The translations under genes were made by a program, and so were the position numbers. A DNA stretch of 58,966 nt, taken from Burkholderiales bacterium. Lineage in GTDB: Bacteria; Pseudomonadota; Gammaproteobacteria; Burkholderiales; Burkholderiaceae_C. Within the stretch, counting starts at the first letter, position 1, and each line of letters starts with the position of its first letter. Under the pieces are notes generated by a model. It had not been told where the DNA came from. It worked only from the letters and a program-made list of their open reading frames with translations, and did not search any database. Shown one piece after another: positions 19,370 through 56,445 of the stretch. The stretch is taken from assembly GCA_016192425.1 (NCBI GenBank), contig JACPUE010000067.1:1-58966 (forward strand). The letters run 5' to 3'.

Positions 19370-19426
19370 TTTTTGGCCTCTAGCGCTTGATGGATAAGCG
19401 CAAGCAGCTACTATTTTGATAGCAAA
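19370..19426 (+). repeat. Dispersed two-hairpin element, copy A (between genes)
   Basis: The 57-bp copy runs TTTTTGGCCTCT, then AGCGCTTGATGGATAAGCGC (hairpin 1, GCGCTT pairing with AAGCGC), AAGCA, and GCTACTATTTTGATAGC (hairpin 2), then AAA. It lies in the gap between fadH and the dienoyl-CoA isomerase gene. It is the clearest full copy and defines the orientation used for the others. Confidence 0.85.
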
Positions 19427-19427
19427 T

Positions 19428-21938
19428 TCAAACCTTTGCACCCTTCATCATGGCGATGTACGGCGCCAGGCGCGTGGCCATTTCTTCGCCCAGGGCCTGC
19501 AGGCCGCTCATGGGGCGCACCATGACTTCGAAGTCCACGATCTTGCCGTCCTCGTCGAAGCGGATCTGGTCGATGCCCTTCAACTCCTTGCCGTTCACCT
19601 TGGCACTGAATTCCAGGATGGCGCTCATGCCGTCTTCGCTGGTATAGGTGCGGTGGTAGCTGAAGTCCTCAAACACCTTGACCACCGTGCCCAGGATGAC
19701 CTGCACCGCCTGCGCGCTGGGGTATGGAGTGTGCGCCATGGGCGAACGGAACACCGCCTTCTTGTGCAGGATGCTGGGCAGCTCGCTCAGGTCGCCCGCA
19801 GCCACCATGGCGTGCCAGGCCTTCAGGCTGGCCTGCACGGCGGGTGGGGCCTGATGCGCGCCCTGGGGGGCAGCCACCGCAGCCGCCGTCGGGGCGGGGC
19901 TAGTGTCCAGGCGCAGGGCCAGTTCGGTGCCTTGTTTGATGGCGCGCTTGGCGTCCAGCTCGGCGGCCTTGTCGGCGCCGCCAATCAGGTGCACGCGCAC
20001 GCCTTTGGCTTCCAGCGCGGCCTGCAGCTCGCGCTGCGGGTCTTGCCCGGCGCAGACGATGACGTTGTCCACGGCCAAGGTCATGTCCTTGTCGCCCACG
20101 CTGATGTGCAGGCCGGCGTCGTCAATCTTGCGGTACTGCACGCCGGGGATCATTTCCACACCGCGGTTCTTGAGGCCGGTGCGGTGGATCCAGCCCGTGG
20201 TCTTGCCCAGGCCATCGCCCACCTTGCTGGCCTTGCGCTGCAGCAGGTAGACCTTGCGCGGCACTGCGCCAATGTGGGCAGGCGTCAATCCGCCGCGTGC
20301 GCCGCCGGTAGTGTCCACACCCCATTCGGCAAAGAACTTGGCCTTGTTCAGGCTGGCTGATTGGCCTTCGTGCAGCAGGTATTCGCTCACGTCAAAGCCA
20401 ATGCCACCGGCGCCGATCACGGCCACGGTCTTGCCCACGGGTTTCTTGTCGCGCAGCACGTCCAGGTAGCCCAGCACCTTGGGGTGGCTGATGCCCTCGA
20501 TCTCGGGCAGGCGCGGGGCGATGCCGGTGGCCAGCACCACCTGCTGGAAACCGGCCTGCACCAGATCCTGGGCGCTGACGCGCTGGCCCAGCTTCACGGT
20601 CACACCGGTGTGCTTGAGCCGCTCGCCAAAGTAGCGCAGCGTCTCGTAAAACTCTTCCTTGCCCGGCACCTGCTTGGCCACGTTGAACTGGCCGCCGATT
20701 TCGCTGGCAGCATCGAACAGGGTCACGTCCAGGCCGCGTTGGGCTGCCTCGGTGGCAAAGGCCAGGCCCGCCGGGCCCGCGCCCACCACGGCCACGCGCT
20801 CTTTTTTCGCCAGCGGCAGGGGCACCAGGATGGTTTCGTGGCAGGCGCGCGGGTTCACCAGGCAGGAGGTGATCTTGCCGCCGAAGGTGTGGTCCAGGCA
20901 GGCCTGGTTGCAGCCGATGCAGGTGTTGATGTCCTGCGCGCGCCCCTGCGCCGCCTTGTTCACGAACTCCGGGTCGGCCAGGAAGGGGCGTGCCATGCTC
21001 ACCATGTCGGCCATGCCCTCGGCCAGCACCGTTTCGGCCACTTCGGGGGTGTTGATGCGGTTGGTGGCCACCAGCGGGATGCCGACCTTGCCCTTGAGCT
21101 GCTGCGTCACCCAGGCAAAGGCCGCGCGCGGCACCTTGGTGGCAATGGTGGGAATGCGCGCCTCGTGCCAGCCAATGCCGGTGTTCAGAATCGTCACCCC
21201 GGCCTTTTCCAAGGCCTGCGCCAGCTGCACCACCTCTTCCTGGGTGGAACCACCTTCGACCAGATCCAGCATCGACAGGCGGAAGATGAGGATGAAATTC
21301 GCACCCACACGCTCGCGCGTGCGGCGCACGATTTCCAGCGGGAAGCGGATGCGGTTCTCGTAGCTGCCGCCGTATTCGTCGTCGCGCTGGTTGGTCTGCG
21401 CGGCGATGAATTCGTTGATGAGGTAACCCTCCGAGCCCATGATCTCGACGCCGTCGTAGCCCGCGCTTTGCGCCAGCACGGCGGCGTTGGCGTAGTCCTC
21501 CACGGTCTGCTTCACCTCGTCGGTGCTCAGCGCATGCGGGCGGAACGGGCTGATGGGCGCCTTGAGGGCACTGGGCGCCACCAGCTCGGGGTGGTAGGCG
21601 TAGCGGCCAAAGTGCAGGATCTGCATGCAGATCTTGCCGCCCGCGTCGTGCACGGCCTGGGTCACCACCTTGTGCTTGTCGGCTTCTTCCTGCGTGGTCA
21701 TGGCGGCGCCGCCGGGCATGGGGCGGGCGCGGTCGTTGGGGGCGATGCCGCCGGTCACGATCAGGCCGACGCCGCCTTTGGCACGCTCGGCATAGAAGGC
21801 GGCCATGCGCTCAAAGCCCTTGGGCGCTTCTTCCAGCCCCACGTGCATGGAGCCCATGAGCACGCGGTTCTTGAGGGTGGTGAAGCCCAGGTTCAGGGGC
21901 GCGAGCATGTGGGGGAAGGGCGTGGCAAGGGCGGTCAT
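19428..21938 (-). CDS. fadH: NADPH 2,4-dienoyl-CoA reductase with extra C-terminal NTF2/SnoaL-like domain
   Basis: An 836-residue protein; bacterial FadH is usually about 670. Residues about 1-370 form an old-yellow-enzyme-type TIM barrel with the catalytic Tyr in [10 protein letters not shown] and His in [10 protein letters not shown]. The 4Fe-4S cysteines appear in CIGCNQAC and, after 11 residues, SCLVNP. Residues about 375-680 form FAD/NADPH-binding domains ([24 protein letters not shown]). After an Ala/Pro-rich linker near residue 690, residues about 705-830 look like an NTF2/SnoaL-like fold ([18 protein letters not shown]). The enzyme reduces 2,4-dienoyl-CoA during breakdown of unsaturated fatty acids. 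Its divergent neighbour is a PadR repressor. The function of the added domain is unknown. Confidence 0.88.
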
Positions 21939-22000
21939 GGCGGTTCCTTCAAAAAGGTTGGCTGGAGGGAAAGCGTTGCACTGTGCAAGCTTTGCGCAAA

Positions 22001-54825: not shown

Positions 54826-54892
54826 GTGCTCCACACACGCCCGCAACGCACTTCAGCGGCACAATGGACAGACACCCCCACCCCATGCCGCC

Positions 54893-56395
54893 ATGCAACG
54901 CATCCACCCCACCCAAGCCCACCCGCTGCACCACACCGACGCCACGCGGCGGCTGGAACACAGCGCCGCAGCCGCCCTGCCCGCCCACACCCTGATGCAG
55001 CGCGCCGGGCAGTCCGTGGCCCGGCTGGCACGCGCCCTGGCCCCGCACGCACGCACCATATGGATTGCCTGCGGCCCCGGCAACAACGGCGGCGACGGGC
55101 TCGAAGCCGCCATGCTGCTGCACCGCGAAGGCGTGCCCGTGGTGGTGACCTGGCTCGGCGCCCCCGAAACGGCACCTGCCGACGCCCGCCAGTCCTGGCA
55201 GCGCGCGCAGGACGCGGGCGTGGCCTTCAGCCACCATGCCCCGCACCCCCTGGGGCCGCAGGACCTGTGCATAGACGCACTGCTGGGCATAGGCCTGGCG
55301 CCCGGCGACCAGCGTCCGCCCCCGTCGGAACGCCTAGCGGCGGTGCTGGCGGCGCTGCACCACAGCCCGGCACCCGTGCTGTGCGTGGACATCCCCTCGG
55401 GCCTGCAAGCCGATACCGGGCAGTACGCCCCAGGCTTTGCGCCCGCAGACGCGCCCCCTGCCCCGCGCCACACCCTGAGCCTGCTCACCCTCAAGCCCGG
55501 CCTGTTCACCGGCGCCGGGCGCGATGCGGCCGGTACAGTCTGGTGGGACGACCTGGGCGTACCCTGCCACAGCGAAGCCGCCAGCGCCTGGCTGTCCGCC
55601 CCCCCGGCCGCTGAAATGCGCCCGCACGCCAGCCACAAGGGCAGCTATGGCGACGTGGTGGTGATCGGCGGCGAAGGGCTGGCCACGCGCGGCCTGGGCA
55701 TGACCGGCGCGGCCCTGCTGGCCGCCCGCGCCGCCCTGCACCACGGCGCAGGCCGTGTGCTCGTCGCCCTGCTGGGCGACAACCGCCTGGACATCGACCC
55801 CCAGCAACCCGAACTGATGCTGCGCCATGTCGATGCACTGCAGCTCGAACAGCTCACCGTGGTCTGCGGCTGCGGCGGCGGCGAGGCCGTGCGCACCGTG
55901 CTGCCCAGCGTGCTGGCCCAAGCGCCGCGCCTGGTGCTCGACGCCGACGCACTCAACGCCGTGGCCGACACCCTGCCGCTGGCCCAGGCCCTGGCAGAAC
56001 GCGCACAGCGCGGGCACACCACGGTACTCACGCCGCACCCGCTGGAAGCCGCGCGCCTGCTGGGCACCCCGCGCGAAGCCGTGCAAGCCGACCGCATGGC
56101 CGCTGCGCAGACGCTGGCCGATCACTTTGGCTGCGTGGTGCTGCTCAAAGGCTCGGGCAGCGTGATCGCAGCGCCGGGGGCCGCGCCCCGCATCAACCCC
56201 ACGGGCAACGCGCGCCTGGCCACCGCGGGCACGGGCGACGTGCTGGCAGGCATGGTGGGCGCACGCCTGGCGGCGGGCCAGGCGGCCGCGCAAGCCGCAG
56301 CCGACGCAGCTTTTGCGCATGGACAGGCGGCAGACCTCGCCCCAGGATCAGGCCCGCTGCTCGCGGGAACACTGGCAAAAATTCAATGTAAATAG
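54893..56395 (+). CDS. nnr: Bifunctional NAD(P)H-hydrate epimerase/dehydratase
   Basis: A 500-residue repair enzyme. The N-terminal YjeF_N epimerase domain (about residues 1-215) has GPGNNGGDGLEAA. The C-terminal ribokinase-like dehydratase domain (about residues 230-500) has KGSYGDVVVIGG, LDADALNA, VLLKGSGSV and TAGTGDVLAGM. It repairs hydrated NADH and NADPH. The start is ATG 54893. Its TAG stop lies in the first bases of a copy of the two-hairpin element. Confidence 0.93.
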   Translation: MQRIHPTQAHPLHHTDATRRLEHSAAAALPAHTLMQRAGQSVARLARALAPHARTIWIACGPGNNGGDGLEAAMLLHREGVPVVVTWLGAPETAPADARQSWQRAQDAGVAFSHHAPHPLGPQDLCIDALLGIGLAPGDQRPPPSERLAAVLAALHHSPAPVLCVDIPSGLQADTGQYAPGFAPADAPPAPRHTLSLLTLKPGLFTGAGRDAAGTVWWDDLGVPCHSEAASAWLSAPPAAEMRPHASHKGSYGDVVVIGGEGLATRGLGMTGAALLAARAALHHGAGRVLVALLGDNRLDIDPQQPELMLRHVDALQLEQLTVVCGCGGGEAVRTVLPSVLAQAPRLVLDADALNAVADTLPLAQALAERAQRGHTTVLTPHPLEAARLLGTPREAVQADRMAAAQTLADHFGCVVLLKGSGSVIAAPGAAPRINPTGNARLATAGTGDVLAGMVGARLAAGQAAAQAAADAAFAHGQAADLAPGSGPLLAGTLAKIQCK

Positions 56396-56445
56396 CCTCC
56401 AGAGCTTGCTGAACAAGCGCTAGCAGCTATTATTTTAATAGCAAA
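56389..56445 (+). repeat. Dispersed two-hairpin element between nnr and rnr
   Basis: The copy runs TAGCCTCC, AGAGCTTGCTGAACAAGCGC, TAGCA, GCTATTATTTTAATAGC and AAA. Hairpin 1 has one mismatch and hairpin 2 is perfect. It lies in the convergent gap next to the rnr terminator. Confidence 0.85.

Follow-up and report, generated by a model that had tools for sequence, protein, structure and literature searches.

What kind of element is repeated along this stretch of a Burkholderiales genome, and what keeps it there? The 58,966 nucleotides of contig JACPUE010000067.1 (assembly GCA_016192425.1; hereafter the window) contain seven good copies of a palindromic element, some between genes and some inside them. 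The original prediction described it as 57 bp long with two conserved hairpins, and offered a non-autonomous repeat or an RNA signal as explanations. Our analysis points in another direction. The element may act as a sequence-specific signal in double-stranded DNA, ~70 bp long, that the chromosome acquired by point changes and that is most like a DNA uptake sequence (DUS), a reading that we put forward tentatively and with nearly as much confidence as doubt.

A dispersed element family

The source genome (3.67 Mb in 68 contigs) was searched with a covariance model built from the seven copies in the window and four more from the genome, all of which have good E-values by construction. In the search of the window, the seven copies were recovered at the predicted positions, each with E < 1e-15 (from 2.4e-22 to 4.8e-16). 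Two further copies had been proposed as likely. The one at 25229 corresponds to a partial match at 25239, which is weak only and is probably a decayed or nascent element; the one at 5619 (E = 0.02) is unsupported by the model. The copies in the window are as follows.

19365-19429, plus strand: copy between two minus-strand genes; E = 2.4e-22; AT tract and GGCCTC at 19370-19380, dyad 1 at 19383-19401, dyad 2 at 19407-19423
25239-25288, plus strand: weak partial copy, antisense inside gene 24904-25770 (presumably dihydropteroate synthase); E = 1.3e-4, 20.6 bits
30043-30107, minus strand: copy in sense orientation inside the DUF4149 gene 29865-30299 (minus strand, PF13664); E = 4.8e-16
37496-37560, minus strand: copy in sense orientation in the SpoU-family RNA methyltransferase gene 36964-37740 (minus strand, PF00588; labeled trmH below as shorthand); E = 1.9e-16
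38813-38877, minus strand: copy in sense orientation within lpxB 38338-39480 (minus strand); E = 1e-19
46970-47034, minus strand: copy in sense orientation within dxr 46057-47244 (minus strand); E = 4.1e-16
53510-53574, minus strand: copy extending over the 3' end of gene 52173-53531 (plus strand), with the next gene at 53581; E = 3.4e-18
56384-56448, plus strand: copy between the convergent genes 54893-56395 and 56489-58801; E = 2.2e-20

The reading frame at the DUF4149-gene copy has GCT ATn as codons, and the copies in trmH, lpxB, and dxr use the same frame.

Genome-wide, the model finds at least 150 element places, each with E < 1e-6. Together with these places, the plain dyad 1 pattern GCGCTTN7AAGCGC, with 66 occurrences in the 3.67-Mb genome vs 0 for the reversed control, provides independent support for the reality of the family. 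The expectation of many more copies, in this genome and in the Comamonadaceae, is borne out, and the description of a real dispersed family with two dyads at fixed spacing holds.

Copies were analyzed in a 1.13-Mb set consisting of the window and 60 stretches picked for holding copies, so that copy densities in it are biased upward. It yields 190 element matches with E ≤ 0.01, part of them opposite-strand repeats. The best 150 of these 190 form the analyzed copies, and exclusion of 11 with insertions or deletions leaves 139 ungapped ones. The element is strongly over-represented on both strands, as is typical of uptake sequences, but at hundreds of copies rather than thousands.

Anatomy of the element

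Conservation in the 139 ungapped copies extends over ~70 bp (positions -6 to 63 from the start of the model), beyond the 57 bp first proposed. The order of parts is an AT tract, GGCCTC, dyad 1 (GCGC..GCGC), AGCA, dyad 2 (GCTATN7ATAGC), and a short AT-rich end; by eye, each strand of the window copies reads as a T tract, the dyads, and an A tract. The conserved positions contain ~65 bits of information (13 in the left, 25 in the middle, and 27 in the right part), an upper estimate because it is taken from the best copies. The GC content of element copies is mostly 35-55%.

Nearly every copy has A or T at positions 7-9, and at positions 50-52 all do but for about one base, in AA or TT runs, which would fit minor-groove readout. 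In the profile read by eye, centers are seen at positions 8, 28, and 51, a spacing of about two helical turns, and the first and last sub-sites (positions 4-12 and 47-55) share YNAWWWTNR. These three phased sub-sites suggest several protein contacts.

Strict sub-motifs occur largely as parts of whole elements. With palindromic patterns counted on both strands, GCTATN7ATAGC has 182 matches within the 150 elements vs 16 outside, GCGCTTN7AAGCGC 90 vs 4, GCGCnAGCAGCTA 66 vs 6, and GGCCTCnAGCGC 17 vs 8, the reversed control being 0 in each case. No information comes from the loose pattern GCGCN11GCGC, which has 194 matches in elements, 1394 outside, and 376 for the control. Weak whole-element matches exist down to ~20 bits.

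Overprinting of coding sequences

The 1.13-Mb set has 32 in-gene copies. Nine of the encoded proteins, chosen because homologs were likely, were compared with solved homologs; two of them are encoded in the window and seven elsewhere. LpxB, Dxr, PurK, AnmK, and an ECH-family protein have no gap at the element codons. Extra residues at the element are found in NadE (3), ornithine carbamoyltransferase (3), TruB (4), and DapF, where there are 6 (2+4), or 11 over the wider loop. None of the nine proteins gains the ~22 codons expected of an insertion, the range being 0-6. The nine in-gene copies are overprinted, without element-sized insertion, and in this they behave as uptake sequences are expected to. 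Uptake sequences of the Pasteurellaceae also shape coding sequences.

Comparison between genera gives a similar picture at the lpxB site. In the eight bearing genera that we looked at, the site is occupied by element-like codons, weakest in genus G064. In 16 element-less genera of the family, the protein is alignable at this site with small gaps at most, and other, mostly GC-rich codons are used.

The choice of codons is conserved as well. Where same-genus relatives have the same residue, rare codons of the four in-gene window elements persist in 133 of 156 cases vs 80 of 466 outside, and those within the DUF4149-gene element in 48 of 49. Over eight other genera, rare codons of lpxB and trmH are kept in 47 of 80 cases inside the element vs 30 of 235 outside. 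The codons ATA and CTT account for 2.3% and 3.3%, respectively, of the codons for their amino acids. Plain synonymous identity gives a less clear signal: the other stretches of the gene that reach the level of the element number 0 of 198 in trmH, 0 of 87 in the DUF4149 gene, 10 of 338 in dxr, and 24 of 323 in lpxB, and over eight genera 4 of 198 in trmH and an unexceptional 150 of 323 in lpxB. The constraint acts on the DNA sequence itself.

Positional stability and transposition

One of the explanations first offered was a repeat resembling repetitive extragenic palindromic (REP) elements or miniature inverted-repeat transposable elements (MITEs), that is, a non-autonomous mobile element moved by a REP-associated tyrosine transposase (RAYT) or another transposase. 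The likeness is considerable, since the element is short, palindromic, present in many copies, and close to gene 3' ends, as are the palindromic extragenic repeats served by RAYTs. The difference lies in the machinery and its traces. The source genome (G000) has no match to the Y1_Tnp (RAYT) transposase model, vs at least one match in 61 of 80 family genomes, and REP elements served by a RAYT were rejected on this ground; no insertion footprint was found, the nine proteins compared above being free of element-sized insertions.

Same-genus relatives provide a further test of mobility. Fetched syntenic DNA of seven such relatives contains 56 element matches, of which 34 are in alignable DNA. All 34 coincide with window copies (one by a single end, and one being the weak copy 25239); the other 22 sit in unalignable DNA and cannot be judged. 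The alignable DNA of the seven relatives thus holds no match where the window is without a copy, and transposition with empty sites, tried as an explanation, found no case there. Copies above the threshold are found in 7 of 7 relatives at 37496 and 38813, in 6 of 7 at 46970, in 5 of 7 at 30043, and in 6 of 6 relatives aligned at 53510. Copy 19365 is common to the window and G093, the sole relative aligned there. At 56384, the G093 copy is aligned at one end, and those of G082, G085, G090, and G092 lie in the same unalignable gap. The weak copy 25239 is above the threshold in one relative of seven (G092), the sequences in the seven being related but degenerate.

Five relatives (G080, G082, G085, G090, and G092) have a copy 2-20 bases from the end of alignable DNA by gene 23576-24907, and the window has none there (23570-23594). 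This observation weighs against full positional stability and favors mobility. Because the window is rearranged beside this gene, gain, loss, and rearrangement of these copies are indistinguishable. With the machinery and the footprints missing and all 34 matches in alignable DNA sitting at window copies, we consider a mobile element very improbable.

Positions 12515-23594 of the window are unaligned in six of the seven relatives and partly aligned in G093, which may reflect a rearrangement or an island, and the DNA fetched for G090 and G085 has no alignment left of 23594.

Hairpins and placement relative to genes

The alternative first offered was an RNA signal, with selection on structure deduced from co-varying hairpin pairs. 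The pairs quoted from the window do exist, and individual copies could form two hairpins. Over the 139 copies, however, the helices lack co-variation: of 15 pairs tested, 23-33 and 24-32 alone exceed shuffled sequences (75 vs 64.7 and 80 vs 64.4 Watson-Crick pairs, respectively, in 139 copies), and three pairs (26-30, 48-54, and 49-53) are below chance, C-A mismatches being common. Even at the two modestly enriched pairs, 62 and 55 of the 139 copies, respectively, are neither Watson-Crick nor G-U. The strongest dependencies between bases are those of adjacent positions. A search of Rfam at gathering thresholds finds just a tRNA in the window and no match to the element, in agreement with the earlier statement that it fits no named family. 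A structured RNA family was rejected on the co-variation result for the 139 copies.

Placement relative to genes was determined with our own hexamer gene finder, in which the DUF4149 gene was cut short and its copy was later moved to the in-gene class. Of the 150 copies, 32 are inside genes, 27 in convergent gaps, 8 in divergent gaps, and 83 in co-directional gaps. The set has 65 convergent, 113 divergent, and 400 co-directional gaps that are 40 bp or longer, so that copies favor convergent over divergent gaps (Fisher p = 6e-8, each copy treated as its own gap). The copies are mostly intergenic near gene 3' ends, and are also found inside housekeeping genes, on both strands.

Enrichment between convergent genes could be taken as a mark of transcription terminators. 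The orientation of copies disfavors this and any other RNA signal, because no strand preference relative to genes is seen: co-directional gaps contain 39 sense and 45 antisense copies (38 and 45 after the miscalled copy was moved). Moreover, 20 of the 31 copies first called in-gene are in sense orientation inside open genes (15 share one frame, 5 share another, and the third has none), the remaining 11 being antisense. A structured RNA element or terminator is thus scarcely credible.

The same features are compatible with another explanation, in which the element is a binding site of a chromosomal protein with an architectural, nucleoid, or supercoil-control role at gene 3' ends, bound by two or three phased dimers, the sites co-evolving with the protein. 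Dyads with AT centers in helical phasing, the lack of strand bias, the enrichment at convergent gene ends, and the constraint at fixed positions all favor it. The distribution along chromosomes may speak against it. Chromosome-organizing sites of the matS, KOPS, or SlmA type would be expected to show a regional or polar distribution. In two complete genomes (58 and 92 places listed), spacing is random, with coefficients of variation of the gaps of 0.95 and 0.96 vs 0.98 expected, and tenths of the chromosome, with the origin unlocated, reveal no regional trend.

Taxonomic range and dialects

Of 80 family genomes, each from a different genus, 30 have the element at E ≤ 1e-6, the source genome included. 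Under stricter filters, 5 of 250 genomes drawn from the order match, four of them from the family and the fifth (G267) from another family, with 6% contamination. The element is thus nearly restricted to one family, the Comamonadaceae. Named bearers among the matches listed are Acidovorax, Giesbergeria, Ottowia, Simplicispira, Comamonas, Rhodoferax, Extensimonas, Paenacidovorax, and Diaphorobacter, and metagenome bins with broader names are also among them.

Within this range, the ends of the element are constant, and the middles differ between genera and are alike within each, as judged from the first places listed. A pattern of the outer parts only matched 25 of the 80 family genomes, with one control match in all. 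We refer to the middle forms as dialects; the clearest are those of genera G031 and G064. A. temperans, A. facilis, and A. defluvii (the last a record flagged as contaminated) have the element in the dialect of the source genome; the A. temperans bearer is strain DSM 7270.

Dialects can be followed at orthologous in-gene sites of two deep genera, G064 and G035. The trmH site scores 66.1 bits with the own dialect vs 28.9 with that of the window in G064, and 40.0 vs 27.0 in G035; the lpxB site of G035 scores 46.1 vs 33.6. The local dialect is thus the best at three of the four sites tested. Element positions are stable within the genus of the window and, with exceptions, at two sites between genera as well.

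The G035 genome (loci L282-L310) appears to have two middle forms side by side, AGCCCA..TGCTCA and CGTGCA..GCACG. This resembles the Neisseriaceae, where two DUS dialects were reported in one species (PMC3630211).

In an LpxB tree of 38 rows, covering 8 bearing and 16 non-bearing genera of the 80-genome survey, all 16 element rows fall in a single 20-row clade (97/91), in which four rows without the element are nested. From this tree, in which at least four changes are forced, we infer one origin and several losses. The nested element-less lineages (G018, G026, G001, and G022) have no match at E ≤ 1e-6.

These observations bear on two of the alternatives. An old immobile dispersed repeat, homogenized in each genome by ectopic gene conversion between constant ends and having no cell function, would account for the very high information per site and for the homogeneous genus-specific middles between constant ends. 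It leaves unexplained the origin of copies in conserved proteins without element-sized insertion and the conserved rare codons, and nested lineages such as G018 are wholly without matches; we regard it as improbable. For a chromosomal protein-binding site, lineages nested in the clade without a match can be counted in its favor. Many sites, coding DNA included, have shifted dialect, which would be hard for a protein with an essential role. This explanation remains a serious rival to DNA uptake, even if an unlikely one in our estimate.

DNA uptake as a candidate function

The case for an uptake signal lies in a combination of traits that DUS also show: the element takes shape through point changes, persists in spite of codon preference, has no strand bias, is limited to one family, comes in dialects, and is missing from nested lineages. 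A putative recognition factor would read it, and the element may let members of the family recognize DNA of their own kind. In the proposed mechanism, elements would arise at fixed chromosomal places through point changes rather than insertion and be maintained by selection or drive. A type IV pilus surface DNA receptor would prefer element-bearing DNA, allowing self-recognition in natural transformation; imported fragments would bring the element with them, and recombination would then spread and preserve matching sites. Altered receptor specificity would lead to shifts of dialect, and loss of specificity to the decay of all sites.

Independent experiments in the family point to the same function. 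Type-IV-pilus-dependent transformation with signs of selective uptake was reported in V. eiseniae, and A. temperans and A. facilis were found to be competent (PMC4212676). PilQ, which uptake by a pilus would demand, is encoded by all 15 bearers among the 30 genomes tested, and also by all 15 non-bearers.

Several observations weigh against uptake. The same PilQ result means that the presence of a pilus does not discriminate bearers. Under the conditions used, A. defluvii and A. delafieldii showed no detectable competence, and none of the Acidovorax tested took up DNA from another Acidovorax species (PMC4212676); the dialect shared by A. temperans, A. facilis, and the A. defluvii record fits this less comfortably. 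Uptake sequences have a short core of ~10-12 bp, and here the conserved part is ~70 bp, with an information content far exceeding the need of one receptor site and a copy density far below that of DUS. The scarcity of strict sub-motifs outside whole elements means that clear half-way sites are few. Finally, the lpxB site of G064 is decayed (19.9 bits with the dialect of the window and 7.8 with its own), and the trmH site of G002, a bearer, has no element.

A more far-reaching proposal would make the Comamonadaceae the third bacterial family to have evolved its own uptake signal, independently of the Neisseriaceae and the Pasteurellaceae. The signal would be a long multi-part mark with constant ends and a genus-specific password in the middle, one that has altered codons in essential genes and changes its dialect at all sites of a genome together. 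Here our doubt somewhat outweighs our confidence.

Comparison with known elements

Uptake signal sequences (USS) of the Pasteurellaceae have AT tracts beside the core. The DUS of the Neisseriaceae number from 943 to nearly 6000 copies per genome, their dialects follow phylogeny, their sites are both intragenic and intergenic, and dyad-symmetric overlapping DUS pairs are described in one species (PMC3630211). The element resembles DUS and USS in having many dispersed copies, overprinted in genes and located in permissive intergenic DNA, in being restricted to a family, and in having dialects. Unlike them (~12 bp and mostly thousands of copies), it is ~70 bp long with ~65 bits, occurs in hundreds of copies, and has a variable middle flanked by constant ends.

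Part of the element has been reported before. In A. ebreus TPSY, the motif GCTTAT(N)5AAGCG was reported in 114 copies, 107 of them intergenic, with 44 convergent and 4 divergent, and the pair was listed as a potential novel unnamed motif (PMC5217627, 2017). It fits dyad 1 at positions 21-36 and shows the same convergent bias as the element. The pair is presented there without mention of the whole element, of overprinting or conservation, or of a family range and dialects. The motif pair ATAGCT(N)22CAAAAG of Polaromonas naphthalenivorans CJ2 (PMC5217627) may represent another dialect.

The Beta-proteobacterial repeat element (BRE) is another dispersed repeat, counted, like the element, in the Comamonadaceae, and also in Bordetella (PMC3110155, 2011). 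In Bordetella it is ~90 bp long with 69% GC, often tandem, and of variable number (PMC3110155). As described, BRE is longer and richer in GC than the present element, whose copies are mostly 35-55% GC and which had one match outside its family in 250 genomes drawn from the order. In the open-licence literature, no paper on the whole element was found and exact element strings had no match; no paper joins uptake sequences with the Comamonadaceae, and the BRE paper is the sole relevant-looking one among the matches listed for repeats in the Comamonadaceae or Acidovorax.

DUF1010 and occurrences on mobile replicons

Positions 1 to ~23 of the PF06231 (DUF1010) profile are a translation of the element in integron frames. 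In the source genome, 34 of 55 weak PF06231 matches, none above the cut-off, fall at element places. DUF1010 models a protein over 66 positions, of which the element explains the first third alone. The family may be wholly or partly spurious and a marker of the Comamonadaceae origin of cassettes.

Other occurrences were noted on mobile replicons. On enteric plasmids, two stretches of class 1 integrons contain the element in DUF1010-annotated frames (L271:2493-2557 and 3689-3753; L272:2493-2557), and ~25 further plasmid records bear a DUF1010 label under an element match. A 365-kb Acidovorax plasmid has one match (L273:3004-3068) in a similarity search with a single query, and six IMG/VR contigs (L265-L270), perhaps prophage flanks, also carry the element. 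Separately, an inverted repeat at a gene end in the window (8382-8441) has 28-nt arms that are 86% complementary and a 4-nt loop.

Implications

If the uptake signal is true, a third family would possess one, longer than those known and with separable constant and dialect parts, and environmental bacteria with reported competence would allow tests of how dialects originate and how they isolate species. If the element is instead a chromosomal binding site, a numerous class of such sites and the protein that binds them await discovery. Either reading touches annotation, both of the first third of Pfam DUF1010 and of the DUF1010 labels in the clinical integrons that we looked at, where the translation of the element may help to trace cassettes to the Comamonadaceae.

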